Source: Pseudomonadota bacterium (GTDB lineage: Bacteria; Pseudomonadota; Gammaproteobacteria; Burkholderiales; Burkholderiaceae_C). Taken from it: DNA of 64,000 bases. Positions 36,842 to 61,264 of the stretch are shown piece after piece. Every line of letters starts with the position of its first letter. Positions within the stretch are counted from its first letter, which is position 1. The position numbers were made by a program, and so were the translations under genes. The stretch covers positions 124,001 through 188,000 of the forward strand of contig JAIUPH010000033.1 in NCBI GenBank assembly GCA_020161065.1. The letters run 5' to 3'. The notes under the pieces were generated by a model that saw only the letters and a program-made list of their open reading frames with translations, was not told the origin of the DNA and ran no database searches.

Positions 36842-36909
36842 ACTCTAGGTGCGGCCGCCGCTTCGGGCCAAGACGAATTCGCTCTGTGGCGATACGCGCG
36901 GCTTATGGC
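36842..36909 (-). promoter_or_regulatory. Conserved LysR-box promoter module A
   Basis: Plus-strand reading: CCAAGACG at 36868, dyad ATACGCGCGGCTTAT at 36892-36906. On the minus strand toward the 2-hydroxyacid dehydrogenase the order is dyad, CGTCTTGG (with -35-like TTGGCC), 18 bases, TAGAGT as -10. Predicted start of transcription near 36835, 23 bases before ATG 36812. One of six copies with identical spacing. Confidence 0.8.
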
Positions 36910-36946
36910 GCCCGTGGCGGGCGGCGCCGTGGCGGGGCGCGGCGTG

Positions 36947-37870
36947 TCAGTCGTCGTCGAGCGGCCGGCCGTCGGGCGCCAGTTCGGCCACCAGCTCCAG
37001 CACGATGGCGCGCACCGCCTGGGCCGGCTCCGACAGCGCCGGCCGGTCGGACGTGCACAGCACCAGCGGCACCTCGATGCTGGGGTCGACGATGCGGCAA
37101 AGGCGCGCCTGCACGGCGGCCGCCACCGCCTGCGCGGCCGACGCCGGCAGCACCGTGGCGCCCACGCCGTTGCCGACGGCCGCCGACAGCGTGGCCGCCG
37201 ACTCGATCTCGGCCACCACGCGCGGCACCATCTGCTGGCCGGCGAAGGCCTCGTCGACGTAGCGCCGCAGGTAGTTGTGCGAACGCGGCAGCAGCAGTTC
37301 GATGTCGCGCAGTTCGGCCAGGCGCACCGGGTCGCGGCCGCCCAGCAAAGCCGCGGGGGCGACCAGCACCAGTTCCTCGGTCAGCAAGGGCTCGAAGCTC
37401 AGGCCTTGCACCAGGCTGCGGCCGCCGTAGAGCACGGCCATGTCCATGCGCCCATTGCCGACCAGCTCGCACAGCGTCGAGCCGAGGCTTTCGTTGAGAT
37501 ACAGCACCACCTCGGGGTGGCGCGAGCGCACGGCCTTGAGCAGCGGCAGCGCCAGCGCCGAGGCCGCCGTGCCCGAGGCCAGCCCCACCGAGACCTGGCC
37601 CGTCAGCGCGCGGCCCGAAGCCCGCACGTCGGCGCGCGCTTGTTCCACCTGGCGCAGGATCTGCTGCGCATGGCGGTACAGCACGCGCCCGGCCTCGGTC
37701 GGGCTGACGCCGCGGCTGGTGCGCAGCAGCAGCTGCTGGCCGAACTCGCCTTCCAGCGTGGCGATCTGCTGGCTGAGCGCCGGCTGCGCGATGTGCAGCA
37801 CCTCGGCGGCCTGCGTCAGGCTGCCGACGTCGACGATCTTGATGAAGTACTTCAGGCGCCTGAGGTTCAC
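36947..37870 (-). CDS. LysR-family regulator, Nac-like paralogue
   Basis: A 307-residue LysR regulator from a GTG at 37870 (NLRRLKYFIKIVDVGSLTQA). The helix-turn-helix LTQAAEVLHIAQPALSQQIA is nearly the same as in enterobacterial Nac and in the paralogue at 55425. The effector domain has VSVGLASGTAASALALPLL and EIESAATLSAAVGNGVG. It lies just upstream of the sugar-acid operon on the same strand, with promoter module A between, so it is the likely regulator of that operon. An in-frame ATG at 37942 would add an unrelated Pro/Ala-rich leader. Confidence 0.87.
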   Translation of the reverse strand: MNLRRLKYFIKIVDVGSLTQAAEVLHIAQPALSQQIATLEGEFGQQLLLRTSRGVSPTEAGRVLYRHAQQILRQVEQARADVRASGRALTGQVSVGLASGTAASALALPLLKAVRSRHPEVVLYLNESLGSTLCELVGNGRMDMAVLYGGRSLVQGLSFEPLLTEELVLVAPAALLGGRDPVRLAELRDIELLLPRSHNYLRRYVDEAFAGQQMVPRVVAEIESAATLSAAVGNGVGATVLPASAAQAVAAAVQARLCRIVDPSIEVPLVLCTSDRPALSEPAQAVRAIVLELVAELAPDGRPLDDD

Positions 37871-37959
37871 GGCGGGGCTCGGTGCGATGCCGGCGGCGGA
37901 CGCCGGATTCGAGCCGCCATTGTGGGCCGGCCCCAGCGGCACTCGCCGACAATCGCCCG

Positions 37960-38916
37960 ATGTCGGTCAACTTCAAGACGCTGCGCAGCTTCGTCGCCGC
38001 GGTCGACGCCAGCAGCCTGTCGGCGGCGGCGGCCCGGCTGCAGCTGGCGCAGCCGGCGCTCAGCCACCAGATCGCCTCGCTGGAGAAGCACTTCCGCCAG
38101 CGCCTGCTGCTGCGCTCGAATGCCGGCGTCACGCCCACCGCGGCGGGGCACGAGCTGTACCGCCATGCCACGCTGCTGCTGCAGCAGCTGGAGCAGGCCG
38201 AGCGCGACGTGGCCGGCCGCGGCAGCAGCCTGGCGGGCACGGTGTCGGTCGGGCTGGCGACCTACAGCACCACCTCGATCCTGTCGACGCCCTTGCTGCA
38301 GGCGGTGCGCGAGAAGTACCCCGAGGTGCAGCTCTTCATCAACGACAACTTCGGCCTCGTGCTCAGCGAGATGGTGATGGCCGGCCGCATGGACATGGCG
38401 CTGATCTATGCGCCGACCCGCATCAAGGGCGTGGCGCTGCAGCCGATGCTGGTCGAACAGCTGTTCCTGATCGCCCCGCCCGACACCGTGCTGCCCGCCG
38501 GCTGCGACGAGTCGGTCGCGCTCGCACAGCTCGCCGGCATGAACCTGCTGCTGCCCGGGCGCACGCACTACCTGCGGCGCCTGGTCGACGCCGCCTTCGC
38601 GCAGGCGCGGCTGACGCCGCGCGTGGCGGCCGAGATCGAGTCGGCCGCCACGCTGCGCGAGGCGATCGAATCGGGCCTCGGCGCCACGGTGCTGCCCTGG
38701 GCGCTGGCGGCCAGCTTCAGCGGCCGCGCGCCGCCGGTGGTGCGCCGCGTGGTCGAGCCCGAACTGCAGACGACGGTGTCGCTGTGCGTCTCCGACCACC
38801 TGAGCCTGACGCCGGCGGCGCAGGCCGTGAAGGCCGAGCTGGCGCAGGTGGTGGCGGCTTTCGTCGGCTCGGGCCACTGCGTGGGCACGCGGCTGCCGCC
38901 GCCGGTGCCCGCCTGA
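37960..38916 (+). CDS. LysR-family regulator at the end of the liv-hyu operon
   Basis: A 318-residue LysR regulator. N-terminal helix-turn-helix: FKTLRSFVAAVDASSLSAAA, then LQLAQPALSHQIASLEKHF. Effector domain: VSVGLATYSTTSILSTPLLQ and EIESAATLREAIESGLGATV. It is divergent from the Nac-like gene (89-bp gap) and its stop is one base from the convergent aldolase gene, which ends the long transporter operon. It may control that operon, whose promoter carries a variant box at 48895-48909. Confidence 0.87.
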   Translation: MSVNFKTLRSFVAAVDASSLSAAAARLQLAQPALSHQIASLEKHFRQRLLLRSNAGVTPTAAGHELYRHATLLLQQLEQAERDVAGRGSSLAGTVSVGLATYSTTSILSTPLLQAVREKYPEVQLFINDNFGLVLSEMVMAGRMDMALIYAPTRIKGVALQPMLVEQLFLIAPPDTVLPAGCDESVALAQLAGMNLLLPGRTHYLRRLVDAAFAQARLTPRVAAEIESAATLREAIESGLGATVLPWALAASFSGRAPPVVRRVVEPELQTTVSLCVSDHLSLTPAAQAVKAELAQVVAAFVGSGHCVGTRLPPPVPA

Positions 38917-38917
38917 A

Positions 38918-39622
38918 TCAGCGCGCCGGCTGCGACAGCTGGCGCATCAGCTGCACGCCGTCGGCGACGAAGGGGTCGGCGTGGTAGTAGATGAGCTGCG
39001 CGCCCTGCGCCACCAGGTGCGCCACGTCCTGCTTCACCGCCAGCGTGCCGGCCAGTCTGCCGGCCGCGCGAATGCGCCGCAGCGTGTCGTCCACCATGTC
39101 CAGCACCGCCTGCGCGCGGCGGCCGCCGGGGGGCACGTTGGGCGAGTGGCCCATCGATTGCGACAGGTCGCCGGGGCCGACGAAGAACACGTCGATGCCG
39201 TCCACCGCCAGGATGGCGTCGAGGTTGGACACCGCCTCCACCGATTCGACCATGCCGACCAGCAGCCGGTTCGCGTGGTCGTCGGGCACGGCATAGCGGA
39301 AGTGATGCACGACCTCGCGCGCGATGGCGGCGGTGTGGATCAGCGGCACCATCAGGCCGTCGGCGCCGGCATTCAGGCAGCGCGTGATCATCGAGCGCTC
39401 CTGGTTCTGCGGCCGCACGATGCCGAAGCCGCCGGCATGGCGCGCGGCCTTGGCCATGTGGTGGATGTCTTCGAAGCCGGGCAGGCCGTGCTCGCAGTCG
39501 ATGAACACCGCGTCGGCGCCGGATCGCACCAGCTTTTCGCACAGCGTCGCCGAGACGTGGTTGGGGTTGACCATCAGCACGCTCGCGCCGCCGGCCAGCC
39601 GGTCTTTCAAGGTCTTGCTCAT
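38918..39622 (-). CDS. HpcH/HpaI-type aldolase
   Basis: A 234-residue class II metal-dependent aldolase of the HpcH/HpaI family. VFIDCEHGLPGFEDIHHM supplies the catalytic base and metal site, VESVEAVSNLDAILAV the metal-binding Glu, and VFFVGPGDLSQSMG the next conserved block. These enzymes split 2-keto-4-hydroxy acids to pyruvate and an aldehyde. It is the last gene of the operon that starts at 48807. Confidence 0.87.
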   Translation of the reverse strand: MSKTLKDRLAGGASVLMVNPNHVSATLCEKLVRSGADAVFIDCEHGLPGFEDIHHMAKAARHAGGFGIVRPQNQERSMITRCLNAGADGLMVPLIHTAAIAREVVHHFRYAVPDDHANRLLVGMVESVEAVSNLDAILAVDGIDVFFVGPGDLSQSMGHSPNVPPGGRRAQAVLDMVDDTLRRIRAAGRLAGTLAVKQDVAHLVAQGAQLIYYHADPFVADGVQLMRQLSQPAR

Positions 39623-39629
39623 AACGGGT

Positions 39630-40430
39630 TCACTTGGGTTTGCCGGGCCAGCCGTCGGGGGCGCCCAGCCAGCGGCTGATCTCGCCGTCCGGCCCCTGGT
39701 CGCGGGCGAAGGTGGGGCTGATGACCAGTTGCTCGATGGTCGTGCGCGCCGGCAGCGTGCAGACCAGCGCGATGGCGCGCGCCACGTCGTCGGGGTCGAC
39801 CATGCGCTCGCGCTCTTCGGCCGTCGGCGGCCGCACGCGCGTGTCCATGATGGGCGTGTTCACCTCGCCCGGCAGGATGGTTGTCGAGCGGATGTTCTGG
39901 TTGCGGAAGGTGGCGTGCACAAAGCTCATCAGGTTGCTCACCGCCGCCTTGGCCGCGCCATAGGGCGCGCCGCCCAGCAGGCCCGGCCGCAGCGCCGCCA
40001 GCGACGACACCGTGACCACCGTGCCGCCGCCCTTGGCCAGCATGGCCGGCAGCACGGCCTGGATCAGCACGTAGACGGCGTTCAGGTTGACGGCGAGGGT
40101 GGCGTCCCAGTCGTCGGCGTCGACCCACAGCAGGTTGCGCACGCGGCTGGACGCGCCGGCGTTGTTGACCAGGATGTCCACCGGGCCGAGGTCGCGCTCG
40201 ATGCCGTGCACCAGCGCGCGCAGCGCGTCGCGGTCTTCCAGGTGCGCGGGCCGCGCCCAGGCCTGGCCGCCGCCGGCGCGGACCTCGGCGGCCACCGCCT
40301 CCAGCGGCGCCGGCCGGCGGCCGGTGACGACCACGCGCGCGCCTTCGGCTGCCAGCCGCAGCGCCGTGGCACGGCCGATGCCGGTGCCGCCGCCGGTGAC
40401 CAGCGCCACCTGTCCGTCGAGCGCGGCCAT
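39630..40430 (-). CDS. Short-chain dehydrogenase/reductase
   Basis: A 266-residue classical SDR: cofactor motif VALVTGGGTGIGRATALRLA, VDILVNNAGASSR, active-site Ser in VVTVSSLAALRPGLLG and YGAAKAAVSNLMSFVH. The C-terminal part ISPTFARDQGPDGEISRWLG is not typical of a named subfamily. It lies 4 bp after hyuB and 7 bp before the aldolase gene, so it probably oxidises an intermediate made by the hydantoinase-like enzyme. Confidence 0.85.
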   Translation of the reverse strand: MAALDGQVALVTGGGTGIGRATALRLAAEGARVVVTGRRPAPLEAVAAEVRAGGGQAWARPAHLEDRDALRALVHGIERDLGPVDILVNNAGASSRVRNLLWVDADDWDATLAVNLNAVYVLIQAVLPAMLAKGGGTVVTVSSLAALRPGLLGGAPYGAAKAAVSNLMSFVHATFRNQNIRSTTILPGEVNTPIMDTRVRPPTAEERERMVDPDDVARAIALVCTLPARTTIEQLVISPTFARDQGPDGEISRWLGAPDGWPGKPK

Positions 40431-40434
40431 CGCC

Positions 40435-42084
40435 TCAGGCTCCCGTCCAGCCGTACACGGCCTGCGCCTGCTGCGCGCTCACCAGGCCCTGGCGGAGGTC
40501 GTTCTCGACCAGTTCGCGCGGGCGCTGCAGCGGGTTGCCCCAGCCGCCGCCGCCGGGCAGTTCCAGCTCCAGCCGGTCGCCTGGGTTGAGCGTCAGCTTG
40601 CCTTTCGGGAACACCGTCTCGCCGTTCAGCCGCACCGCGCCGCGCGTGCCGTCGTGGCCGCCGACGACGCCGAAGCACGGGTGCTTGACGCGTTCGGTGG
40701 ACAGGTAGACGTTCATCGGCCGGTCCGACAGGTTGCGCAGAACGCCGCGCTGCCCCAGGCCGCCGCGGTACTTGCCGGCGCCGCCGGAATCGGGGATCAG
40801 CTCCTTGCGCTCGGTCAGCACCGGCACCGCCAGCTCGTACATCTCGATCGGCGTGACCTTGCAGTTGGACGGAAAGCTCAAGGTGTCCAGCCCGTCCAGC
40901 GTCGAGCGGCCGCCTTGCCCGCCGTGGAAGTTTTGCGCGCTGCCGTAGGCGCGGCCGTCGGCGGTGTGGCCCTGGCAGTTGATGCCCCAGATCGGCGCCC
41001 CGCCGCTGTCGCCCTTCACGCGGTCGGGCACCACGCCTTGCAGCGCGCGGAAGATCAGGCTCGGGATCACGTGGCCGACCAGGTTGCGCGCGGCGCCCGC
41101 GGCATGCGGGTGCGGGTTGAGGATGGTGCCGAGCGGCGCGTCGTCGGTGATCGGCAGCATGCAGCCTTCGTTGTTCGGCGTGTCGGGGTCGAGCAGGCAC
41201 TTCAGCGCATACACCGTGTGCGCCACGCGGTAGTGCGGCACCACGTTGATGCCGCGCGCCACCTCGGGCGAGGTGCCGGCGTAGTCGACGTGGATGGCGT
41301 CGCCGCGCACCTGCACGTCCACGCACAGCTTGACGTCACTCTCGAAGCCGTCGATCGTCACCTCGGCCTTGTAGCTGCCTGGCGGCCAGGCGGCGATGGC
41401 CTTGCGCATGTGCGCTTCGGATCGGCCGTGGATCGCCCGGCCCAGCGCCTGCACGTCGTCGAGGCCGTACTCGTCCATGAAGCGCGACAGCTCCCGGCTC
41501 ATCACCTCGTTGGCGGCCACCATGCTCTGGATGTCGCCGCGCACCTCAGCCGGCAGGCGCACGCTGGCCTCGATGACCGCGAAGACGTCGGCATTCGGCA
41601 CGCCGGCCTTGTACAGCTTCAACATCGGGATGCGGATGCCTTCCTCGAACATGTCGGTCGAGTCGGGGCTTTGCGGGCGGCCGCCGATGTCGGGCAGGTG
41701 CGCAATGCTGCCGGCGTAGGCGACGATGCGGCCGCCGCGGAAGATCGGCGTCAGCATCACCATGTCGGGCAGGTGGCCGGTGCCGATGGCCGGGTCGTTG
41801 GTGGCCAGCACGTCGCCGGGCTGCAGCGTCGCCGGCGGGAAGGCCGGCAGGAAGTGGTTCTGCGCCGCCATCGGCAGCGAGGTGATGAACACCGGGATCG
41901 ACCAGGTGCACTGCGCCAGCGCGCGGCCTTCGGCGTCGAGCAGCACGGTCACGTAGTCGTGGTTCTCGCGCACGATGGGCGAGAACGCGGTGCGGCCGAG
42001 CGCCGAATCGGCCTGGTCGGCGATGAAGACCAGGCGGTCCCACATCACCTGCAGCGTGATGGGGTCGTCGAAGTCGACGGTCAT
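40435..42084 (-). CDS. hyuB: Hydantoinase/oxoprolinase subunit B (HyuB)
   Basis: A 549-residue HyuB-family protein. FSPIVRENHDYVTVLLDAEG, DVLATNDPAIGTGHLPDMVM, and DSGGAGKYRGGLGQ are diagnostic. With HyuA it forms the ATP-dependent hydantoinase/5-oxoprolinase/acetone-carboxylase-like complex that opens cyclic amides or carboxylates ketones. The ATG at 42084 overlaps the hyuA stop by four bases. The exact substrate cannot be assigned. Confidence 0.9.
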   Translation of the reverse strand: MTVDFDDPITLQVMWDRLVFIADQADSALGRTAFSPIVRENHDYVTVLLDAEGRALAQCTWSIPVFITSLPMAAQNHFLPAFPPATLQPGDVLATNDPAIGTGHLPDMVMLTPIFRGGRIVAYAGSIAHLPDIGGRPQSPDSTDMFEEGIRIPMLKLYKAGVPNADVFAVIEASVRLPAEVRGDIQSMVAANEVMSRELSRFMDEYGLDDVQALGRAIHGRSEAHMRKAIAAWPPGSYKAEVTIDGFESDVKLCVDVQVRGDAIHVDYAGTSPEVARGINVVPHYRVAHTVYALKCLLDPDTPNNEGCMLPITDDAPLGTILNPHPHAAGAARNLVGHVIPSLIFRALQGVVPDRVKGDSGGAPIWGINCQGHTADGRAYGSAQNFHGGQGGRSTLDGLDTLSFPSNCKVTPIEMYELAVPVLTERKELIPDSGGAGKYRGGLGQRGVLRNLSDRPMNVYLSTERVKHPCFGVVGGHDGTRGAVRLNGETVFPKGKLTLNPGDRLELELPGGGGWGNPLQRPRELVENDLRQGLVSAQQAQAVYGWTGA

Positions 42085-44177
42085 GGCTTTGCCTCCAGCA
42101 GCATGATGAGGTTGAAGCGGGCGTCCAGCGAGGCGCTGGCGCCGGGGCCCACGACCACCGTCGACTCGCGCTGTTCGACGATGGCCGGGCCCTGCACCAC
42201 GACGCCGGGCGCCAGCGCGTAGTGGTCGTAGACGGGGGTGTCGACGAAGCCGCCGGCCTCGGCGAAGAACACCGGGCGGCTGCCCTTGCGGGGGTTGCGA
42301 ACGGCTTGCGCCCGGCCGCGCATGCTGGCGACCGAGACCTCGTCCTTCGGGCCGCTGGCGCGCACGCGCCAGGTGATGACCTCGGCATCGGTGCCCGACA
42401 CGTTGCGCCCGTACAGCCGCACGTAGGCATCGTGGAAGCGCTGCAGCAGCTCGTCCAGGAAGGCGCGATCGCCGGGGTCGCCCGCCGGCAGCGCGACCGA
42501 GATCTCGTGGCCCTGACCGACGTGGCGCATGTCGACGGTGTAGCTGACGCCGATCGCCGCCGGCGCCACGCCGCTGGCGGCCACCACCTCGCGCCCTTGC
42601 GCGGCCAGCGTGGCCAGCAGGGCTTGCACCTGCGCGGCGTTCCAGCGCGAGACGGCCATCGGCGCGCTGGTGGCCAGGTCGGCCGCCACCGGCGCGCCGA
42701 GCAGGCCGATGGCCGAGGTGACGCCGGCGCCCAGCGGGCAGATCACCTTGCGGATGCCGAGCTTGCGCGCCACGCCGTACGCATGCACCGGGCCGGCGCC
42801 GCCGAAGGCGATGAGCGGCAGCGCGCGCGGGTCGACGCCGCTGTCGGTGGCCTGCATCGCGGCAGCCTCGGCCATGCTCTCGTTGACCATGTCGTGGATG
42901 CCGAAGGCGCAGCGCTCGGCCGAGATGCCCAGCTCGTCGGCCAGCCGCGCCATCGCGCGCACCGCGGCGCTGCGGTCGAGCGCGAAGTCGCCGCCGAGGA
43001 ACGAGTGTTCGTTCAAGTAACCCAGCAGCAGATCGGCATCGGTCACCGTCGGCTCGCTGCCGCCGCGGCCATAGCAGGCCGGCCCCGGCGCCGCCGCCGC
43101 GCTGCGCGGGCCCACCTGCAGCGTGCCCAGCCGCGTGCGCGAGGCGATGCTGCCGCCGCCGGCGCCGATCTCGATCATGTGGATCGACTGGATCTTCAGC
43201 GGAAAGCCGCTGCCCTTGCGGAAGCGTTCGTGGCGCGCCACCTCCAGCTCGTTGGCGATCTGCGGCTGCCCGTCGGGGATCAGGCACAGCTTGGCGGTGG
43301 TGCCGCCCATGTCGAACGACAGCACGCTGGCCTCGCCGGCGGCGCCGGCGTAGCCCGCCGCCGCCACCGCGCCGGCGGCCGGCCCCGATTCGATCAGCCG
43401 CACCGGCGTGCGCGCGGCGCTGGCGCTGGGCACCACGCCGCCGCTGGAGGTCATCCACAGCAGCTGGCCGGCCACGCCGCGCGCGCCCAGCTCGCGTTCC
43501 AGGTGGTCCACGTGCTGCACCATCATCGGCCGCGTGTAGGCGTTGGCCACGGTGGTGGAGGCGCGGTCGTACTCGCGCACCTCGGGGCAGACGCTGGACG
43601 ACAGCGAGACCGAGACCCCCGGCGCCCATTCGGCCAGCAGCTCGGCGATGCGCTGCTCGTGCTGCGGGTACTTGTAGGCGTGCAGCAGGCACACCGCCAC
43701 CGAGCGGATGCCTTGCGCGACGAGCTGCGCGGCCACTGCGCGGACCGAGGCCTCGTCGAGCGGCGTCACCACCTCGCCGCCGGCGCTGATGCGCTCCACC
43801 ACGCCGAAGCAGCGGTCGCGCGGCACCAGCGGCTCGGGGTACTGGATGCGCAGGTCGTACAAGTCGTAGCGGCCTTCGGTGCGGATGCGCAGCATGTCCT
43901 GGAAGCCGTCGGTCGTGATGAACGCGGTGCTGACGCCCTTGCGCTCCAGTACGGCGTTGGTCACCACGGTGGTGGCGCCCAGGATCTGCAGCGCGCCTTC
44001 GCCGGCGCGCGCGGCCTGGCCGCGACGCACCTTGGCCAGGATCTCGTCGATGCCCTGCAGCACGGCGCGCGCCGGCGCGTCGGGCGTGCTCAGCACCTTG
44101 TGCAGCACGATGCTGCCGTCGTCGTCGGAGAAGGCGAAGTCGGTGAACGTGCCGCCGGTGTCGAAGGCGAGTTTCAT
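42081..44177 (-). CDS. hyuA: Hydantoinase/oxoprolinase subunit A (HyuA)
   Basis: A 698-residue ASKHA-fold HyuA protein. MKLAFDTGGTFTDFAFSDDD carries the phosphate-binding loop, ATTVVTNAVLERKG and VLSFDMGGTTAKLCLI the second phosphate motif, and RYDLYDLRIQYPEPLVPRDR is a family block. It lies between the transporter genes and hyuB in one operon, so the transported compound is probably its substrate: a hydantoin, lactam or similar. Confidence 0.9.
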   Translation of the reverse strand: MKLAFDTGGTFTDFAFSDDDGSIVLHKVLSTPDAPARAVLQGIDEILAKVRRGQAARAGEGALQILGATTVVTNAVLERKGVSTAFITTDGFQDMLRIRTEGRYDLYDLRIQYPEPLVPRDRCFGVVERISAGGEVVTPLDEASVRAVAAQLVAQGIRSVAVCLLHAYKYPQHEQRIAELLAEWAPGVSVSLSSSVCPEVREYDRASTTVANAYTRPMMVQHVDHLERELGARGVAGQLLWMTSSGGVVPSASAARTPVRLIESGPAAGAVAAAGYAGAAGEASVLSFDMGGTTAKLCLIPDGQPQIANELEVARHERFRKGSGFPLKIQSIHMIEIGAGGGSIASRTRLGTLQVGPRSAAAAPGPACYGRGGSEPTVTDADLLLGYLNEHSFLGGDFALDRSAAVRAMARLADELGISAERCAFGIHDMVNESMAEAAAMQATDSGVDPRALPLIAFGGAGPVHAYGVARKLGIRKVICPLGAGVTSAIGLLGAPVAADLATSAPMAVSRWNAAQVQALLATLAAQGREVVAASGVAPAAIGVSYTVDMRHVGQGHEISVALPAGDPGDRAFLDELLQRFHDAYVRLYGRNVSGTDAEVITWRVRASGPKDEVSVASMRGRAQAVRNPRKGSRPVFFAEAGGFVDTPVYDHYALAPGVVVQGPAIVEQRESTVVVGPGASASLDARFNLIMLLEAKP

Positions 44178-44195
44178 GCTCGAAGAGGTCCTTGG

Positions 44196-46703: not shown

Positions 46704-46714
46704 GGTGGACGCTT

Positions 46715-47587: not shown

Positions 47588-47619
47588 GGCGGTGCCGTCC
47601 TGCGCGGTGCTTCAGGCCG

Positions 47620-48807: not shown

Positions 48808-48844
48808 CGAGGACTCCGGGGCTTGGGGTGGAAGAGGTGAAACG

Positions 48845-53404: not shown

Positions 53405-54061
53405 TCAGTTGTTGCAGCGCGCTTCCAGCGCGTCGATGAACGAACGGTCCCAGCGGCCTTCTTCCATCGCCTGGATCGTGCGCGCCTCGGCTTCCAGCAC
53501 GCCGCGGGCCTTGGCGATCAGCGTGGCGGCTTCGGCGGGCGGGAAGGCCAGCAGGCCGTCCTGGTCGCCGAGCACGATGTCGCCGGGGTTGACGACCATG
53601 CCGCCGACCTGGATCGTTACGTTGATGTCACCGGGCCCGTCCTTGTACGGCCCGCGGTGGGTGACGCCGCGCGCGTAGACCGGGAAGTCGCGGTTGCGGA
53701 TCTCGGCCACGTCGCGGATGGCGCCGTCGATCACCACGCCGGCCACGCCGATCTTCGCGGCGTAGAACGTGAGGATGCCGCCGACCACCGCATTGGCAAG
53801 GTCGCCGCCGGCGTCGACCAGCAGCACGTCGCCGGGGCGGCAGAACTCCAGCGCGCGCAGGTAGGTGAGGTTGTCGCCGCCGCGCGAGCGCGCCGTCACC
53901 GCGGTGCCGGCCATCGTCAGCCGCTGCGGGCGGTGGTAGGGCTGCAGACCGATGGTGCCCACGCTGCGGTGCAGGTTGTCGCTGATGGCGGCCAGCGGCA
54001 GCTCGCGCAGCGCGGCGATCAGCGTTTCGTCGGCCTGCGGCGCCGAAGGGTTCTTGCGCAT
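53405..54061 (-). CDS. RraA-like / HMG aldolase family protein
   Basis: A 218-residue RraA-fold protein. GTAVTARSRGGDNLTYLRAL, CRPGDVLLVDAGGDLANAVV, and VVIDGAIRDVAEIRNRDFPV carry the substrate/metal residues of 4-hydroxy-4-methyl-2-oxoglutarate aldolases and oxaloacetate decarboxylases; this branch is enzymatic rather than RNase-inhibiting. It follows aminotransferase copy 2 by 18 bp, so it probably acts on the keto acid that enzyme makes. Convergent with the LytTR gene. Confidence 0.85.
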   Translation of the reverse strand: MRKNPSAPQADETLIAALRELPLAAISDNLHRSVGTIGLQPYHRPQRLTMAGTAVTARSRGGDNLTYLRALEFCRPGDVLLVDAGGDLANAVVGGILTFYAAKIGVAGVVIDGAIRDVAEIRNRDFPVYARGVTHRGPYKDGPGDINVTIQVGGMVVNPGDIVLGDQDGLLAFPPAEAATLIAKARGVLEAEARTIQAMEEGRWDRSFIDALEARCNN

Positions 54062-54079
54062 GGCGTCGACCTTTCTTCT

Positions 54080-55288
54080 TCAGTCCAGCGCGGCCGCCGC
54101 GCGCGCGATGCGGCGGCAGCCTTCGTCGAGGTTCTCGATCGAGGTGGCGATCGAGAGGCGGAAGTACGGCGACAGCCCGTAGGCGCTGCCGGCCACCACG
54201 GCCACGCCCACGCTTTCCAGCAGGTGCATCACCACGTCGGCGTCGCTGGCCAGCGGCTTGCCTTCGGCGGTGGTGCGGCCGATCAGGCCGGCGCAGTTGA
54301 CGTACAGGTAGAAGGCGCCGTCGGGGCTGCGGCACGACAGGCCGGGGATGGCGTTGATCTGCGCCAGCGTGCGGTCGCGCCGCTGCTTGTAGATGGCCAC
54401 GCTCTCGGCGACGAAACCCTGGTCGCCGTTCAGCGCCGCGGCCGCCGCCGCCTGGCTGACCGAGCAGCAGTTGCCGGTGGACTGCGACAGCATGGTGTCC
54501 AGCGCCTGCACGATGTCGCGCGGGCCGGCCACCCAGCCGATGCGCCAGCCCGTCATCGCATAGGTCTTGGAGACGCCGTTGACGGCCAGCGTGCGCTCGC
54601 GCAGCTCGGGCGCCACGTTCAGCAGGTGCACGGTGCGCTGGCCGTCGTAGCGGATGTGCTCGTAGATGTCGTCGGTCATCACCAGCACCTGCGGGTGGCG
54701 CAGCAGCACGTCGGCCAGCGCGCGGTACTCGGCCGCGGTGTAGCTGGCGCCGGTGGGGTTGCTGGGCGAGTTCAGCAGCAGCCAGCGCGTGCGCGGCGTG
54801 ATCGCGGCCTGCAGCTGCGCCGGCGTCAGCTTGAAGCCGGCCGCTTCGGGGCAGGGCACGGTGACGGGCTTGCCGTCGCTGGCCAGCACCATGTCGGGGT
54901 ACGACACCCAGTAGGGCGCGGGGATGATGACCTCGTCGCCCGGCTCCAGCGTGACCTGCAGCGCGCTGAAGATCGCGCTCTTGGCGCCGCTGGTGACGAT
55001 GATTTCGTTGGCCGCGTAGGTCAGCCCGTTCTCGCGCTGCAGCTTGGCGACGATGGCCTGGCGCAGGTCGACGGTGCCGGCCATCAGCGTGTAGCGCGTG
55101 GCGCCGCGGTCCATGGCCTCGGCGGCGGCGCGGCGGATGTGCGCCGGCGTGTCGAAGTCGGGCTCGCCGACGACGAGGTTGACGATCGACTGGCCCTGGC
55201 GGCGCAACTCGTTGGCACGGTCGGCGGCCGAGGTGCTGGGCGAAGGCTTGATGCGGCGGACGCGGTCGGCGATGCGGGGGCTGCTCAC
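54080..55288 (-). CDS. PLP-dependent aminotransferase, class I/II, copy 2
   Basis: A 402-residue paralogue of the gene at 48950-50158, with the same length and motif layout: VVGEPDFDTPAHIRRAAAEA, IIPAPYWVSYPDMVLASDGK, LLLNSPSNPTGASYTAAEYR, and VNGVSKTYAMTGWRIGWVAG with the PLP Lys. Start is GTG at 55288 with GAGGT upstream. It is transcribed divergently from the Nac-like gene and heads a two-gene operon with the RraA-like gene, from promoter module C. Confidence 0.9.
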   Translation of the reverse strand: MSSPRIADRVRRIKPSPSTSAADRANELRRQGQSIVNLVVGEPDFDTPAHIRRAAAEAMDRGATRYTLMAGTVDLRQAIVAKLQRENGLTYAANEIIVTSGAKSAIFSALQVTLEPGDEVIIPAPYWVSYPDMVLASDGKPVTVPCPEAAGFKLTPAQLQAAITPRTRWLLLNSPSNPTGASYTAAEYRALADVLLRHPQVLVMTDDIYEHIRYDGQRTVHLLNVAPELRERTLAVNGVSKTYAMTGWRIGWVAGPRDIVQALDTMLSQSTGNCCSVSQAAAAAALNGDQGFVAESVAIYKQRRDRTLAQINAIPGLSCRSPDGAFYLYVNCAGLIGRTTAEGKPLASDADVVMHLLESVGVAVVAGSAYGLSPYFRLSIATSIENLDEGCRRIARAAAALD

Positions 55289-55336
55289 GGGCGGGACCTC
55301 GGGGGGGTGGAGTGGGGCTCGGCGGCCGATGCGCGA

Positions 55337-55404
55337 ACGGTAGGCCGCCCGGCGCGCGAAGGCCAAGACGAGATTGGTCTGTCTCGATAGGCGATGCTTA
55401 TGAC
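55337..55404 (-). promoter_or_regulatory. Conserved LysR-box promoter module C
   Basis: Plus reading: CCAAGACG at 55363, dyad ATAGGCGATGCTTAT at 55387-55401. Toward aminotransferase copy 2: dyad, CGTCTTGG with TTGGCC as -35, 18 bases, TACCGT as -10, start near 55330. The dyad ends 24 bases before the divergent Nac-like gene's GTG, so the same site could autoregulate that gene. Confidence 0.8.
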
Positions 55405-55424
55405 GCCGGAGTAGACTGCCCCGC

Positions 55425-56363
55425 GTGAACCTGCGCCGCCTGAAGTACTTCGTCAAGATCGTCGATATCGGCAGCCTGACGCAGGCGGCCGACGTGCTGC
55501 ACATCGCGCAGCCGGCGCTGAGCCAGCAGCTCGCCACGCTGGAAGGCGAGGTGCGCCAGCAGTTGCTGACGCGCACCAAGCGCGGCGTCACGCCCACCGA
55601 GGCCGGCAAGGTGCTGTACCGCCACGCGCAGCTGATCCTGCGCCAGTGCGACCAGGCGCGCGTCGACATGGAAGCCGCCGGCCGCGGCCTTTCGGGCGCC
55701 GTGGCGGTGGGCCTGGCGCCGGGCACCGCGGCCGCCGGCCTGGCGCTGCCGCTGCTGCGCACCGTGCGCGCGCGCCACCCCGGCGTGCTGCTGTACCTGA
55801 ACGAGACCTACGGCAGCACGCTGTCGGAACTGGTGATGAACGGCCGCATGGACCTCGCCGTGCTGTACGGCGGCCGCGTGCAGGTGCACGGCCTGCAGTT
55901 CCTGCCGTTGCTGAAGGAGCCGCTGTACGTGGTGGGCCCGGCCAACCTGCCGGCGCCGCCCGACGCGGTGCCGCTGCAGCGCCTGGCCGAGATGGACTTG
56001 TTCCTGGCGCGGCCCTACAACGTGGTGCGCAAGATGGTCGACGAGGCCTTCGCCGGCATCGGCGCCGCGCCGCGCGTGGTGGCCGAGATCGAGTCGGCCA
56101 GCACGCTCACCGCGGTGATCGCCGACGGCCTGGGCGCCACCATCCTGCCCGAGTCGATGGCGCGCACCGTGGTCGCCTCGTGCAACGCCTGGCAGAGCCG
56201 CATCGTCGAGCCGGCCATCGAGGCGCCGCTGGCGCTGTGCCAGTCCGACCACCTGCCGCTGACCGAGCCGGCGCAGGCCGTCAAGGACATCCTGCTGGAG
56301 CTGGTGGCCACGCTGCCGGGCAGCCTGATCGCGCCCGACGAGGTGCGTCTGGCGGTGTCATAA
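55425..56363 (+). CDS. nac: Nac-type LysR-family regulator
   Basis: A 312-residue LysR regulator. The N-terminus LRRLKYFVKIVDIGSLTQAA, then VLHIAQPALSQQLATLEGE and TRTKRGVTPTEAGKVLYRHA, is almost the enterobacterial Nac sequence. The effector half is more diverged (VGLAPGTAAAGLALPLL, EIESASTLTAVIADGLG). Nac of Klebsiella and E. coli binds ATA-N9-TAT; that pattern is found on both sides of this gene (modules C and D) and at three more places. Start is GTG at 55425. The physiological signal is unknown; the name rests on the DNA-binding domain and the sites. Confidence 0.85.
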   Translation: MNLRRLKYFVKIVDIGSLTQAADVLHIAQPALSQQLATLEGEVRQQLLTRTKRGVTPTEAGKVLYRHAQLILRQCDQARVDMEAAGRGLSGAVAVGLAPGTAAAGLALPLLRTVRARHPGVLLYLNETYGSTLSELVMNGRMDLAVLYGGRVQVHGLQFLPLLKEPLYVVGPANLPAPPDAVPLQRLAEMDLFLARPYNVVRKMVDEAFAGIGAAPRVVAEIESASTLTAVIADGLGATILPESMARTVVASCNAWQSRIVEPAIEAPLALCQSDHLPLTEPAQAVKDILLELVATLPGSLIAPDEVRLAVS

Positions 56364-56424
56364 GTCGGCCTTATCGGGGCACAGCCAAACCGTCTTGGTC
56401 GGCGGCGGGCTTCGCGGCTAACTT
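56357..56424 (+). promoter_or_regulatory. Conserved LysR-box promoter module D
   Basis: Dyad ATAAGTCGGCCTTAT at 56360-56374 (perfect ATAAG-N5-CTTAT) overlaps the stop codon of the Nac-like gene. CGTCTTGG at 56391 contains TTGGTC as -35; 18 bases later TAACTT at 56419-56424 is the -10. The predicted start, near 56431, leaves almost no leader before the accB ATG at 56433. Confidence 0.8.
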
Positions 56425-56432
56425 TCGCGGCC

Positions 56433-56921
56433 ATGGATGCGCCGCAGATCAAGGCTTTCATCGACGCGATGGCGTCGTCGGACCTCGCCGAGATGGAGGT
56501 CAGCCACGAGGGCTGGACGCTGCGGCTGGTGCGGCGGCCTGAAGCGGGCGCGGCCGCTGCGCGGCCGGAGGCCGGCGCGGCCGCTGTGCGGCCCGCGGCG
56601 GCAGCGCCGGCGCGCCGTGCAACGGCAACGGTCGCGCCCGTCACACCCGCGGCGCCCGCCACCGCCACGCCCGCCACCGCCACGCCGGCCAACGACCTGA
56701 GCGCCCCGATGTTCGGCGTGCTGCACTGGCAGCCGTCGCCCGGCGCCGCGCCTTTCGTCGCCGCCGGGCAGGCGGTGCGCGCGGGGCAGACGCTGTGCGT
56801 GATCGAGGCGATGAAGATCTTCAACGAAGTGGCGGCCGACCGCGACGGCATCGTCGACGCGCTGCTGGCCACGGGCGGCGCCGAGGTCGAAGCCGGCCAG
56901 CCGCTGCTGCGCTACCGCTGA
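56433..56921 (+). CDS. accB: Biotin carboxyl carrier protein
   Basis: A 162-residue BCCP-type protein. The N-terminal helix [20 protein letters not shown] and WTLRLVRR match AccB; a long Ala/Pro/Thr linker (about 36-88) leads to the biotinyl domain [20 protein letters not shown]. The biotin-accepting Lys is K128 in [11 protein letters not shown]. First gene of an operon with biotin carboxylase and PxpB/PxpC/PxpA-type genes, so it probably serves that complex rather than fatty acid synthesis. Confidence 0.88.
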
Positions 56922-56934
56922 GGGCCGACGCGCG

Positions 56935-58278
56935 ATGTTCGACACCGTGCTCATCGCCAACCGCGGCGAGATCGCCTTGCGCATCCTGCGCGCCTGCCGC
57001 GGGCTGGAGCTGAAGGTCGTCGCCGTCTATTCCGAAGCCGACCGCGACGCGCCGCACGTGCGCCTGGCCGACCAGGCGCTGTGCATCGGCCCGGCGGCGC
57101 CGGCGCGCAGCTACCTGAACCAGGCGGCCATCCTGGCGGCGGCCGCGGTCAGCGGCGCGCAGGCCATCCACCCGGGCTACGGCTTCCTGTCGGAGAACGC
57201 CGGCTTCGTGCAGCGCGTGGCCGATGCCGGGCTCGTCTTCATCGGCCCCAGCGCCGAGTGCATCCGCACCATGGGCGACAAGGTGGCCGCCAAGCGCGCG
57301 ATGCGCGCCGCCGGCGTGCCTTGCGTGCCGGGCCCCGACGGCAGCCTGCCCGACGATGCGGCCGCCGTGCAGGCCATCGCGCGCGAAATCGGCTACCCAG
57401 TGATCGTCAAGGCCGCCGGCGGCGGCGGCGGCCGCGGCATGCGCGTGGTGCGCGACGAAGCCGCGCTGGCCGAGGCGCTGGCGCTGACGCGCGAGGAAGC
57501 GCGCCGCGCCTTCGGCAACCCCGAGGTCTACATCGAGAAGTTCCTGCTGCACCCGCGGCACGTGGAGATCCAGGTGCTGGCCGATGCCCATGGCCAGGCG
57601 CTGTGGCTGGGCAGCCGCGACTGTTCGCTGCAGCGCCGCCACCAGAAGGTGCTGGAAGAAGCGCCGGCACCCGGCATCGCGCCGGCGGCGCTGGCCGCGG
57701 TGGGTGAACGCTGCGCCGAGGCCTGCCGCCGCATCGGCTACTGCGGCGTCGGCACCTTCGAGTTCCTGTACGAAGACGGCGCCTTCTTCTTCATCGAGAT
57801 GAACACGCGGCTGCAGGTCGAGCACCCGGTGACCGAGATGACCACCGGCATCGACATCGTGCAACAGCAGCTTCGCGTCGCGCGCGGCGAGCCGCTGGCG
57901 CTGACGCAAGCGCAGGTCGATTGCCGCGGCCATGCCTTCGAATGCCGCATCAACGCCGAGCATCCCGAGACCTTCGCGCCGTCGCCCGGCCGCATCAGCG
58001 AATGGCGGCTGCCCGGCGGCTTCGGCGTGCGCGTCGACAGCCACGCAGCCGCCGGCTACCAGGTGCCGCCGTACTACGACTCGATGATCGGCAAGCTGGT
58101 GGTGCACGGCGCCACGCGCGCCGATGCGCTGGCCCGCTTGCGGCTGGCGCTGGACGAAATGCACGTCGGCGGCATCGCCACCAACCTGGCGCTGCACCGG
58201 CGCCTGGTGCGCGACGGCGACTTCGCCGCCGGCGGCGTCGACATTCACCATCTCGAACGTTGGCTGGCTGCAGTATGA
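56935..58278 (+). CDS. accC: Biotin carboxylase subunit
   Basis: A 447-residue biotin carboxylase. [20 protein letters not shown] at the start, ATP-grasp Gly loop [53 protein letters not shown], and [17 protein letters not shown] are all intact. It carboxylates biotin on the carrier using ATP and bicarbonate. It starts 13 bp after accB and overlaps pxpB by four bases. Because it is linked to pxpB/pxpC it is likely a specialised paralogue, not the housekeeping AccC. Confidence 0.92.
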
Positions 58279-58940
58279 GCGGCATGAACGAGCAGCCGTC
58301 GATCAGCCGCCTGGGCACGCGCGCGCTGCTGTTCGAGGCGCCGGGCGAGACCACGCTGGCCACGCAGCAGCGCATCTGGTCGCTGGCGCGCGAGGCCGAG
58401 ACCTGGCCCGAGGTGCGCGAAGCCGTGCCCGGCATGAACAACCTCATGCTGTGCTGGCGCCGCGCGCCGCAGCGCTGCGACGCCATCGAGGCGCGGCTGC
58501 ACGCCGCCTGGGCCGCCGCGCGGCCGCTGGCGCTGCAAGGCCGCGTGGTCGAACTCGACGTGGTCTACGGCGGTGACGGCGGCCCGCACCTGGCCGACGT
58601 GGTGGCGCACACCGGGCTGGCCATCGACGAGATCGTCGAGCGCCACAGCGCGCCGGTCTACCCCGTCTACGCGCTCGGCAGCCACCCCGGCTATTGCTAC
58701 CTGGGCGGCATGGACCCGCGCATCGCCACGCCGCGGCGCCCGGTGCCGGTGCTGCGCATTCCCGGCGGCGCGGTGTCGATCGGCGGCGCGCAGACCGGCG
58801 TCTCGGCGTCCGACGGCCCCAGCGGCTGGAACACCATCGGCTGCACCGCGATGAGCTTCTTCGACCCGCAGCGCGACCCGCCGGCGCTGCTGGCGCCGGG
58901 CGACAGCCTGCGCTTTCGCGTCAAGCAGGTGATCCGGTGA
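58275..58940 (+). CDS. pxpB: 5-oxoprolinase subunit PxpB-like (KipI/AHS1 domain)
   Basis: A 221-residue AHS1-domain protein. [60 protein letters not shown] and [20 protein letters not shown] are family blocks. In Bacillus, PxpB with PxpC and PxpA opens 5-oxoproline using ATP; in urea carboxylase the same domain forms half of the carboxyltransferase. Start overlaps the accC stop (ATGA); its end overlaps pxpC. Confidence 0.9.
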
Positions 58941-59932
58941 TCGAAGTGCTCGCCACCGGCGCGCTGGCCACGGTGCAGGACCTGGGCCGCGAAGGCGCGC
59001 TGCGCTGGGGCGTGGGCAGCGCCGGCGCGATGGACCCGCTGGCGCTGGCCGCCGGCAACCTGCTGCTGGGCAACGCCGACGATGCCGCCGGCATCGAGCT
59101 GCCGGTGCTGCCGTTTCGCGTGCGCTTCCAGCGCGACGGCGGCTTCGCCGTCACCGGCGCCGATGTCGACGCCCGGCTCGACGGCCGCCCGCTGCTGCCC
59201 TGGACCGCGCAGCGCGCGCGCGCCGGCCAGGAGCTGCTGCTCAATCTGCCGCGCCGCGGCGCCACCTGGCCCGCGAGCCGCGCCTACCTGTGCCTGGCCG
59301 GCGGCGTGGACGTGCCGCGGCTGCTGGGCTCGCGCAGCACGCAGATGCGCGGCGCCTTCGGCGGCTTCGAAGGCCGCGCGCTGCGCGCGGGTGACGTGTT
59401 GGTTGCGGGTGCTGCCTCGGCTGAAGAATTCTTGGAGGGCGTGGGTCTGGTGCCGCCGGCGCTGGCGATGCCGCTGCTGGCCGATGGTTTGCCGGCCTTG
59501 CGCGTGCTGCCGGCCGCCGAATACGCGGCCTACACCGCGGCTTCGCGCGCCGCCTTCTGGGCCGAGCCCTGGAAGATCAGCGCGCAGAGCGACCGCTACG
59601 GCTACCGCCTGCAAGGCCCGCCGCTGCAGCCGCTGGCGCCGCTGGAAATGCGCTCGCACGGCATCGTGCCCGGCGTGATCCAGGTGCCGCCGGGCGGCCA
59701 GCCCATCGTGCAGATGCGCGACGCGCAGCCCTCGGGCGGCTACCCCAAGCTGGGCACGGTGATCGAGGCCGACCTCTGGCGGCTGGGGCAGGCGCCGGTC
59801 GGCAGCCGCGTGCGCTTCGTCGAATGCGATTGGAACGGCGCGCTGGCCGCGCTGGCGCAGGTGGACCATTGGCTGGCGGAGGCGCGGCGCTGGCTGGGGC
59901 TGCAGCGCGGGGCAGGGGGCATCGCGCCATGA
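58937..59932 (+). CDS. pxpC: 5-oxoprolinase subunit PxpC-like (KipA/AHS2 domain)
   Basis: A 331-residue AHS2-domain protein. [20 protein letters not shown], the GSAGAMDPLALAAGNLLLGN block, YLCLAGGVDVPRLLGSRST, DRYGYRLQG and MRDAQPSGGYPKLGTVIEAD are diagnostic. Start is GTG at 58937 in a GTGA overlap with pxpB; its stop overlaps the next start. Pairs with PxpB to form the carboxyltransferase-like core. Confidence 0.9.
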   Translation: MIEVLATGALATVQDLGREGALRWGVGSAGAMDPLALAAGNLLLGNADDAAGIELPVLPFRVRFQRDGGFAVTGADVDARLDGRPLLPWTAQRARAGQELLLNLPRRGATWPASRAYLCLAGGVDVPRLLGSRSTQMRGAFGGFEGRALRAGDVLVAGAASAEEFLEGVGLVPPALAMPLLADGLPALRVLPAAEYAAYTAASRAAFWAEPWKISAQSDRYGYRLQGPPLQPLAPLEMRSHGIVPGVIQVPPGGQPIVQMRDAQPSGGYPKLGTVIEADLWRLGQAPVGSRVRFVECDWNGALAALAQVDHWLAEARRWLGLQRGAGGIAP

Positions 59933-60402
59933 CGAGCGCCATGACGCCCGACGACATCGCCCGCCTCGCCGGCTGGCTGCGCGACAGCGGCATCGGCCTG
60001 CTGGAACTGCGCGGCCCGGGCACCGCGCTGCGGCTGCGGCAGGGCGCCGGCGGCATCACGGCGGAGACCATCGCGCCGGCCGAACTTGAAGCGCACGCTC
60101 AAGCGCACGATGAAGCGCACGCCGAACCCCACGCCGAAGCGCAGCCCGAAGCGCCGCTGATCGTCAGCGCCCCCTCGGTCGGCGTCTTCCTGCACCGCCA
60201 CCCGCTGCGCGCCGACGACCTGGCCGCGCCGGGCACGGCCGTCGCCGCCGGCCAGGTGCTGGGGCTGCTGCAGATCGGCCCGCTGCTGCTGCCGGTGGCG
60301 GCGCCGGCGGCGGCGCTGCTGCAAGATCGCCTCGCGCCGCACGGCGCGGCGGTCGGCTACGGCACGCCGCTGGCGGCGCTGCAACCCATCGACCCGAACT
60401 GA
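59929..60402 (+). CDS. Biotin-carrier-like protein lacking the biotinylation site
   Basis: A 157-residue protein with BCCP architecture: N-terminal helix MTPDDIARLAGWLRDSGIGL and LELRGPGTALRLRQ, a His/Glu/Ala-rich linker (about residues 54-75), then a biotinyl-like domain (LIVSAPSVGVFLHRHPLRAD, GTAVAAGQVLGLLQIG). Where the carrier has EAMK, this protein reads QIGPLLLPV, so no biotin can be attached at that site. It overlaps pxpC by four bases and precedes pxpA by 12 bp. It may be a structural or docking subunit. Confidence 0.78.
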   Translation: MTSAMTPDDIARLAGWLRDSGIGLLELRGPGTALRLRQGAGGITAETIAPAELEAHAQAHDEAHAEPHAEAQPEAPLIVSAPSVGVFLHRHPLRADDLAAPGTAVAAGQVLGLLQIGPLLLPVAAPAAALLQDRLAPHGAAVGYGTPLAALQPIDPN

Positions 60403-60414
60403 GGACCTCGCCGG

Positions 60415-61182
60415 ATGGACATCGACCTCAACGCCGACCTCGGCGAAGGCTACGGCCCCTGGCGCATGGGCGACGACGAAGGGCTGCTGCAGGTGCTGTC
60501 GTCGGCCAACGTGGCCTGCGGCTTCCACGCCGGCGACCCGCTGATCATGCAGCGCACGGTGCGCCGCGCCGGGCAGCTCGGCGTCGACATCGGCGCCCAC
60601 GTCGGCTACCCCGACCGCCAGGGCTTCGGCCGCCGCGCCATGCACGTCGAGCCCGACGAGCTGGCCGCGATGGTGACCTACCAGCTCGGCGCGCTGGCCG
60701 GCATCGCGCGTGCCGCCGGTCAGCGCATGACGCACATGAGCTTTCACGGCGCGCTCGGCAACCTGGTGGCCGCCGACGCCGGCCTGGCCGCGGTGCTGGT
60801 GGGCGCGGTGGCGGCATTCGACCCGACGCTGATCGTCAGCTCGTCGCCCAGCGCGGCGATCGAAGGCGCCGCGGCGGCGCAGGGGCTGCGCGTGGCCACC
60901 ACCTTCCTGGCCGACCGCGCCTGCGACGCGCAAGGCCTGCTCGTCCCGCGCAAGCTGCCGGGCGCGGTGATCCACGACGAGGCCGAGCTGCTGGCCCGCG
61001 TGCGCCGGCTGCTGCGCGAAGGCACCGTGCTCAGCCACGACGGTCAGGCCATCGCGCTGCGGCCGCGCTCCATCCTCGTGCATGGCGACACGCCGGGCGC
61101 GCTGGCGCTGGCGCGCGCGGTGCGGCGCGAGATCGAAGCCGCCGGCGCGCGCGTGCTGCCGATCTCGCGGCAATGGGCCTGA
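60415..61182 (+). CDS. pxpA: 5-oxoprolinase subunit PxpA (LamB/YcsF family)
   Basis: A 255-residue LamB/YcsF TIM-barrel protein. MDIDLNADLGEGYGPWRMGD, SSANVACGFHAGDPLIMQRT and GAHVGYPDRQGFGRRAMHVE are fully conserved, as is FLADRACDAQGLLVPRKLPG. With PxpB/PxpC it opens 5-oxoproline or a related lactam to a linear amino acid. Last gene of the accB operon before the next promoter module. Confidence 0.92.
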   Translation: MDIDLNADLGEGYGPWRMGDDEGLLQVLSSANVACGFHAGDPLIMQRTVRRAGQLGVDIGAHVGYPDRQGFGRRAMHVEPDELAAMVTYQLGALAGIARAAGQRMTHMSFHGALGNLVAADAGLAAVLVGAVAAFDPTLIVSSSPSAAIEGAAAAQGLRVATTFLADRACDAQGLLVPRKLPGAVIHDEAELLARVRRLLREGTVLSHDGQAIALRPRSILVHGDTPGALALARAVRREIEAAGARVLPISRQWA

Positions 61183-61196
61183 ACAGGGTTGACCCT

Positions 61197-61264
61197 GACA
61201 TACGAGCCCCTTATCGCTCCAGACCCAATCCGTCTTGGCGCCGCGCCAGCCCGGCCGATAGATT
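61197..61264 (+). promoter_or_regulatory. Conserved LysR-box promoter module E
   Basis: Dyad ATACGAGCCCCTTAT at 61200-61214, CGTCTTGG at 61231 with TTGGCG as -35, 18 bases, TAGATT at 61259-61264 as -10. Predicted start near 61271, followed by GAGGA at 61274 and ATG at 61286: a compact, complete promoter and ribosome site for the SDR gene. Confidence 0.82.

Follow-up and report, generated by a model that had tools for sequence, protein, structure and literature searches.

The promoter modules of the locus

The 64,000 bases analysed here (the window: positions 124,001 to 188,000 of contig JAIUPH010000033.1, assembly GCA_020161065.1, from a Pseudomonadota bacterium of the Burkholderiaceae_C) carry six copies of a compact promoter module, the genes and operons that these face, and three genes for LysR-type regulators of the Nac family (P0001, P0002 and P0003; Table 1). 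Five of the copies (class 1) are likely, on the evidence of their sequences, to be complete LysR-type activator promoters through which P0001, and probably also P0002, would co-activate the neighbouring operons, and copy 2 (class 2) would be the same machine with another sequence. The whole appears to be a lactam-catabolism regulon that is local, widespread and of known mechanism.

Read in its own direction, every copy opens with a 15-bp dyad; after a gap of 16 bases comes an 8-base block, followed by two bases and by a spacer of 18 bases that leads to a TAnnnT -10 element. All six stretches are present at the places and in the orientations given in a preliminary description of the window, with the 15-bp dyad, the 18-base spacer and the -10 hexamers claimed there. 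The first dyad is ATA-N9-TAT, the site of Nac, in five of the six copies, in agreement with that description, and ATC-N9-GAT in copy 2; the block is CGTCTTGG in five copies (1, 3, 4, 5 and 6), and copy 2 has ATCAAGATCCTTGAT plus CGTATTGG. The block had been said to begin 24 bp from the edge of the dyad, but it begins 17 bases past the last base of the dyad and ends 24 bases past it, so that the earlier distance fits the end of the block.

Table 1. Promoter modules, the genes that face them and the LysR regulators (positions counted from the first base of the window; ORF, open reading frame).
Feature	Class	Position	Strand	Details	Basis
Module copy 1	1	36842..36906	-	recognition dyad 36892-36906; activation dyad 36871-36885 over -35; -10 36842-36847	
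Module copy 2	2	48845..48909	-	dyad ATCAAG-N3-CTTGAT 48895-48909; second dyad 48874-48888; -10 48845-48850	
Module copy 3	1	50196..50260	-	recognition dyad 50246-50260; activation dyad 50225-50239; -10 50196-50201	
Module copy 4	1	55337..55401	-	recognition dyad 55387-55401; activation dyad 55366-55380; -10 55337-55342	
Module copy 5	1	56360..56424	+	recognition dyad 56360-56374 over LysR stop codon; activation dyad 56381-56395; -10 56419-56424	
Module copy 6	1	61200..61264	+	recognition dyad 61200-61214; activation dyad 61221-61235; -10 61259-61264	
P0001, Nac-family LysR, proposed class-1 regulator		55425..56363	+		Pfam; NCBIfam NF008410, 486.8 bits; tree
P0002, paralogous Nac-family LysR		36947..37870	-	start at MNLRR, ORF open to 37942	Pfam; NF008410, 435.3 bits
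P0003 (designated 37882), third paralogue, candidate copy-2 reader		37960..38916	+	start set by alignment	NF008410, 303.8 bits
Genes facing copy 1		34431..36812	-	2-hydroxyacid dehydrogenase 35724-36812; AAA_33 protein 35204-35824; SDR 34431-35207	Pfam
Genes facing copy 2		38918..48849	-	ABC binding protein 47620-48849; two permeases; two ATPases	Pfam, NCBIfam
Further genes facing copy 2		within 38918..48849	-	hydantoinase A and B (caprolactamase-like); SDR; HpcH/HpaI aldolase	Pfam, NCBIfam
Aminotransferase facing copy 3		48950..50146	-	start approximate, ORF open to 50641	
Genes facing copy 4		53405..55288	-	aminotransferase 54080-55288 (start approximate); RraA-like aldolase 53405-54061	
Operon facing copy 5		56433..61182	+	biotin carrier; biotin carboxylase; PxpB (in ORF 57921-58940); PxpC; ORF 59824-60402; PxpA	
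Operon facing copy 6		61286..63509	+	SDR; two amino-acid-type ABC permeases	

Confinement to one region of the genome

In the source genome (6,291,011 bases in 41 contigs), the pattern ATA-N9-TAT-N16-CGTCTTGG, with gap lengths from 12 to 18 allowed, has five exact matches, all of them in the window (copies 1, 3, 4, 5 and 6), compared with 0.0017 expected from base composition and none for a reversed-pattern control. When up to three mismatches are allowed, there are 40 matches versus 32 in the control; this tolerant scan is at the level of noise, and the weight is therefore put on the exact matches only. A profile of 67 positions (48 sites, the five of this genome included) places the five copies at E values of 2e-14 to 5e-8 and the next match at 1.06, and matrices built without this genome give the same copies 38.5 to 57.7 bits (random maximum in 4 Mb, for the full 15-site matrix, 17.1 bits). 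The random scatter that the preliminary description, which had proposed such a scan, named beforehand as speaking against it was absent, and only the five copies were meaningful matches. Its view that six copies form one regulon stands for these five, which are confined to the window genome-wide, but not for copy 2, which belongs to a separate operator class (see below).

The sole other site in this genome above the random maximum (C16:281989-282027; L046:9963-10029, minus strand; two mismatches, 22.1 bits) is without a good -10 element and is absent from the profile matches to an E value of 10; its context, as judged by eye from ORFs, is a FrmR/FrmA-like pair and an enoyl-CoA hydratase-like gene.

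Distribution in other genomes

The exact pattern occurs in seven of 200 genomes of the family (reversed control, none), and a NAC-family LysR gene (E ≤ 1e-70) occurs in five of the same 200 (the source genome G000, G104, G150, G162 and G197), all among those seven. In the fragmented G104, the LysR gene adjacent to the site is cut by a contig end, and the gene that satisfied the threshold is P0003-like and lies on another contig. Within these scans, neither the site nor the LysR gene was found in G094 and G195, which are of the same genus as the source. G197, G150 and G162 share the cluster, in which a module is followed by the genes for biotin carrier, biotin carboxylase, PxpB, PxpC and PxpA, and another module by SDR and permease genes, while a module and an aminotransferase gene lie on the other side of the LysR gene with RraA nearby. 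A matrix of 11 exact sites located four more modules in G150 and G162, each where one was expected; all 11 of these sites, which were found with a pattern lacking the -10 element, have the TA and T of a -10 at fixed places. The LysR frame of G150 (L050, on contig C7, and L086) contains one TAG stop, although its three modules are present.

A broader sample consisted of the best 80 of 527 loci encoding a relative, obtained by a contig scan with five LysR sequences; it is not a census, and L086, which repeats the training genome G150 and carries one of its sites, is not independent. In the 1.54 Mb of these loci, the 15-site matrix finds 216 sites above 18 bits and none in reversed sequences, with at least one site in 69 of the 80 loci and in all 64 that have recognised Pxp genes (biotin carrier/carboxylase genes were not seen in 14 of these 64 within the stretch examined). 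The hosts span the Alpha-, Beta- and Gammaproteobacteria and include Variovorax, Rubrivivax, Bradyrhizobium, Microvirga, Methylobacterium, Skermanella, Pseudomonas, Paraburkholderia, Pantoea and Serratia, among others. The nearest recognised downstream gene on the same strand encodes SDR at 69 of the 216 sites, BCCP (biotin carrier) at 46, aminotransferase at 30, RraA at 21, PxpB at 7, 2-hydroxyacid dehydrogenase at 4, PxpA at 3, permease at 2 and other proteins at 2, and 32 sites have none. P0001 itself groups with Rubrivivax and alphaproteobacterial rows in the 82-row tree described below, and it is absent from G094 and G195; the cluster may therefore move between lineages.

A second dyad at a fixed distance from the first

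The module is richer than a lone Nac site, as the preliminary description had argued, and its extra information is a second LysR dyad (AsA-N9-TCT) that lies over the -35 element exactly 21 bp, or two helical turns, from the first. Across the 209 distinct sequences among the 216 sites, three elements carry the information, namely the first dyad (ATAAG-N5-CyTAT), CAsA-N9-TCTT, and the TA and T of the -10, and little is found in the centre of the first dyad or in most of the 18-base spacer. A matrix-free test gave the same spacing: of 348 two-strand matches to the first dyad (many dyads being counted on both strands), 163 have A.A-N9-TCTT at +21, the next commonest offset having 5, and among these 163 pairs TA...T begins at +59 in 129 and at +60 in 23; the reversed control has 12 first dyads, none followed by the second. 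The block had been taken for a -35 element, which it does overlap, but it is more than that: TCTT is conserved in 95-100% of the distinct sites, whereas the GG that follows, and that would belong to the -35 alone, is found in 59% and 71%. Most of the block is therefore accounted for by the downstream half of an activation site that overlaps the -35.

Three features of a LysR-type activator promoter are present: a T-N11-A dyad that precedes the -35, a second dyad near the -35 and whole turns away, and a linked LysR gene. If transcription starts 7 bases past the -10, the centre of the first dyad lies near -64, as does that of the Nac dyad at hutU. Sites near -65 and -35 are described for the promoters of LysR proteins (PMC11602165).

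LysR regulators of the Nac family

The curated cut-off of the NCBIfam model for NAC (NF008410, 309 bits) is passed by P0001 and P0002, P0003 falling below it, and these three are the only NAC-family matches in the genome at E ≤ 1e-60. P0001 and P0002 are 65% identical to each other. Their DNA-binding domains match that of E. coli Nac at 55/62 (P0001) and 51/62 (P0002) positions, compared with 32/60 for P0003; P0001 and P0002 are thus expected to recognise one and the same dyad, and P0003 a different one. The effector domains of all three are more distant from E. coli Nac (86/205, 88/205 and 83/203, respectively). Copy 4 lies between the aminotransferase gene that it faces and the start of P0001, its dyad 23 bases from the start codon; at the other end, the first bases of copy 5 fall within the last codons of P0001. 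Two copies thus flank the P0001 gene, and the model score and DNA-binding domain of its product uphold the earlier description of this gene as Nac-like. Judging from these sequences, P0001 is the likely regulator of the class-1 copies, and probably P0002 as well.

The 80 loci contain 86 LysR genes, of which 71 have a class-1 site above 18 bits within 1.5 kb (three of these are P0003-like genes next to a linked LysR gene); the other 15 comprise nine NAC-type, three P0002-like and three P0003-like genes. Two observations count against P0001 and P0002 as the class-1 regulators: in three relatives, no class-1 module lies within 1.5 kb of the P0002-like gene, and two of the seven family genomes with the exact pattern (G011 and G170, whose sites were excluded from the matrices) have a different LysR, 30-32% identical, beside the site, so that the layout is not unique to the Nac-like family. 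Sites at L043:9363-9401 and L044:10226-10264 combine an ATACC-type dyad with the same 16-base gap and CGTCTTGG, and the adjoining LysR proteins are only 30-32% identical to P0001 and P0002.

Copy 2 as a second operator class

Copy 2 scores 4.5 bits on the class-1 matrix, which is the level of chance, and 37.5 bits on a matrix of the corresponding copies of six relatives, which makes it the best site in the window (random maximum 10.8). The genomes of these relatives (G200-G205), all with a P0003-like gene, also encode the binding protein that copy 2 faces, and a copy-2-like site precedes one such gene in each. A single class of six copies was rejected, copy 2 being at chance on the class-1 matrix and conserved in a form of its own. 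Copy 2 thus appears to represent a second operator class, probably read by another LysR regulator, P0003.

Several results weigh against this. The class-2 matrix, made from six relatives' sites of which two are almost identical, is unspecific: it gives up to 38.0 bits to class-1 sites of the relatives, no less than copy 2 obtains, 15.8-31.9 bits to the class-1 copies of the window, and up to 25.0 bits to a small number of other sequences from loci richer in AT. This matrix therefore cannot part the classes; what parts them is the chance-level score of copy 2 in the reverse test, on the class-1 matrix, and the retention of its variant bases in relatives. The link between P0003 and copy 2 comes from genomes selected for holding P0003-like genes, and a search of 399 genomes of the order for the co-occurrence of P0003 with the copy-2 gene found both, at the thresholds set, in the source genome only, which is uninformative. 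In three of G200-G205, modules in the place of copy 3 are partial matches to the class-1 profile near the ends of the loci, about 1.4 kb upstream of the binding-protein gene, a point against the model as a whole.

One protein, either P0001 or P0002, might instead read all six copies by tolerating the variant bases of copy 2, which would suit the identical geometry and the scores of both classes on the class-2 matrix; this is less likely, given the chance score of copy 2 on the class-1 matrix, the different DNA-binding domain of P0003, and the persistence of the variant bases in the six genomes that have a P0003-like gene. A second class read by P0003 is preferred.

Relation to NAC of Enterobacterales

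NAC is expressed under nitrogen control and is active without a coinducer. Among 13 enterobacterial genomes chosen from the loci, there are 23 NAC-family loci (1.5 kb of flank was examined at each, and the NAC-type match of G206 is partial), 12 with the module and 11 without; the proteins of the 11 module-less loci are 59-74% identical to E. coli Nac, and those of the 12 others 41-56%. In all nine genomes that have both kinds, the module is beside the local kind only. Pantoea rodasii (G206) has a third NAC-family gene (L171, on contig C3), 41% identical to Nac, with two adjoining modules. E. coli codB, a Nac target, has one Nac-like dyad and no clear second dyad, although a single promoter proves nothing.

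Trees were made of 93 rows (two partial LysR rows left out), 82 rows (also without duplicates of one gene and 20 near-identical loci) and 81 rows (also without the long-branch row L171); the interrupted LysR frame of G150 is in none of them. With a P0003-like root, the 82-row tree has NAC as one clade of 13 rows (98/92), with P0001 and P0002 outside it; this clade is nested with enterobacterial local regulators (100/100), and then within a node that includes Pseudomonas and Marinomonas (96/92). The approximately unbiased (AU) test rejects a tree that places NAC outside both the local and the P0002-like rows (p-AU 0.0006, without L171), an optimistic value in that the group was named after seeing a tree. 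The direction of the tree depends on the long-branched P0003-like outgroup. The nested position and the rejection together make NAC look like a derived copy of a local regulator.

The regulator of the present locus is thus a local relative outside the NAC clade, not Nac itself. It seems fairly likely that NAC arose once, within Enterobacterales, from a duplicate of such a pathway-specific activator, keeping the DNA-binding domain and the dyad, losing the two-dyad operators and the inducer, and spreading genome-wide in its regulation; the present regulon, with its range from Variovorax and Bradyrhizobium to Pantoea, where both kinds stand side by side, would then be the ancestral state. That the modules are instead ordinary Nac sites, and their operons nitrogen-starvation genes under true Nac as in enteric bacteria, would explain ATA-N9-TAT in five of six copies and the passing of the NAC cut-off by P0001 and P0002, but is improbable: the genome has no class-1 sites beyond these five, which are confined to a single catabolic region, NAC of Enterobacterales forms a separate nested clade without nearby modules, and the second dyad exceeds a Nac site.

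Genes facing the modules

Every copy had been described as pointing at a gene for transport, transamination or ring opening; the first gene is of another kind at copy 1 (2-hydroxyacid dehydrogenase, AAA_33 and SDR) and at copy 6, where SDR comes before the ABC permeases; beyond the window, the copy-6 operon is followed by genes for an ATPase and an SBP_bac_3 binding protein (L054). The first ATG of the ORF for the copy-2 binding protein falls within the -10 of copy 2, and the true start is therefore probably further in. Among the oxoprolinase models, those for PxpB (182.2 bits, cut-off 145.6) and the PxpA subfamily (328.4, cut-off 226) are passed, and the PxpC equivalog model (294.7, cut-off 500) is not. 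The ORF between PxpC and PxpA has no match in Pfam or NCBIfam, and is about 35-47% identical in relatives where matched. As a guess, conversion of a hydroxylated pyroglutamate to 4-hydroxyglutamate, and of this to pyruvate and glyoxylate, would suit the enzymes.

Genes for a histidine kinase and a LytTR response regulator (51147-53389, plus strand) lie between copies 3 and 4 and are faced by no module. An FMN riboswitch (24030-24191, minus strand, 100.6 bits) is the sole Rfam match in the window at gathering scores.

Proposed mechanism

The following mechanism, including the binding, activation, inducer and substrate that it assumes, is predicted from sequence. One dimer of a LysR tetramer would occupy the upstream dyad (cATAAG-N5-CyTAT) as its recognition site, and the other dimer CAsA-N9-TCTT, which overlaps the -35 and lies 21 bp downstream on the same DNA face. 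A metabolite of the pathway would shift the downstream dimer, whereupon RNA polymerase could start from the TAnnnT -10. The presence of inducer would thereby switch on amino-acid-type uptake through copy 6, biotin-linked, oxoprolinase-like ring opening through copy 5, transamination and aldol cleavage through copies 3 and 4, and reduction through copy 1; copy 4 is also just upstream of the gene for P0001 itself, and copy 2 would be read by P0003.

It is very improbable that one sigma factor uses the block and the -10 as its promoter, with the dyad belonging to a different, unlinked regulator: the strong conservation around the -35 and -10 would fit, but not the constant 21-bp offset of the dyads, the retention of TCTT where the GG of the -35 varies, or the company of a Nac-family LysR gene in the 200-genome sample. 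Recent duplication of one functionless stretch, although the two aminotransferase and three LysR genes here are paralogous, is scarcely credible, as the dyads are alike but their centres and the 18-base spacers share almost no sequence, and the sites recur at the same places in other genera.

Comparison with known systems

The mechanism proposed for the modules is the ordinary LysR one; the regulon is new, and the link to NAC is its most interesting part. A literature search, with most subscription journals outside its reach, found no title or abstract that deals with the origin of NAC or describes this cluster as a LysR regulon, and the main text of a survey of Proteobacterial regulons (PMC5343134) contains neither Nac nor oxoprolin-. 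The only regulator of a Pxp cluster found in print was PxpR of Corynebacterium glutamicum, whose authors state that, as far as they knew, no earlier study had addressed the regulation of 5-oxoproline metabolism (PMC13274462). The pxpTABC genes that it controls resemble the present locus in having the regulator beside genes for uptake and Pxp ring opening. PxpR, however, is a GntR-type repressor, whereas a LysR regulator is found here, together with biotin carrier, biotin carboxylase, aminotransferase and aldolase. The copy-2 hydantoinases A and B match the models of the caprolactamase subunits CapA and CapB (PMC8453981), but their scores (520.5 and 214) are below the NCBIfam cut-offs of 1000.

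BenM, CbnR and OxyR are LysR regulators whose promoters have recognition and activation sites. Other LysR activator promoters, as set out for AccR (PMC11602165), share with the modules dyads near -65 and -35, whole helical turns apart, and a regulator gene beside the targets; the present system differs in that a genome has several operators, whose sequence and spacing are strictly the same. This rigid and readable grammar, with regulator-operator pairs in three classes of Proteobacteria, makes LysR spacing and specificity directly testable. With Nac of Enterobacterales, the class-1 system has in common the protein family, a nearly identical DNA-binding domain and the ATA-N9-TAT dyad; unlike Nac, it consists of a local regulon with two-dyad operators, and its regulator has a diverged effector domain and a place outside the NAC clade. 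The comparison offers a concrete origin for NAC, in that a single cell allows NAC to be compared with relatives of the local regulator presumed to be its ancestor, and it is a warning for annotation, as a protein that passes the NAC cut-off is not necessarily a nitrogen regulator.

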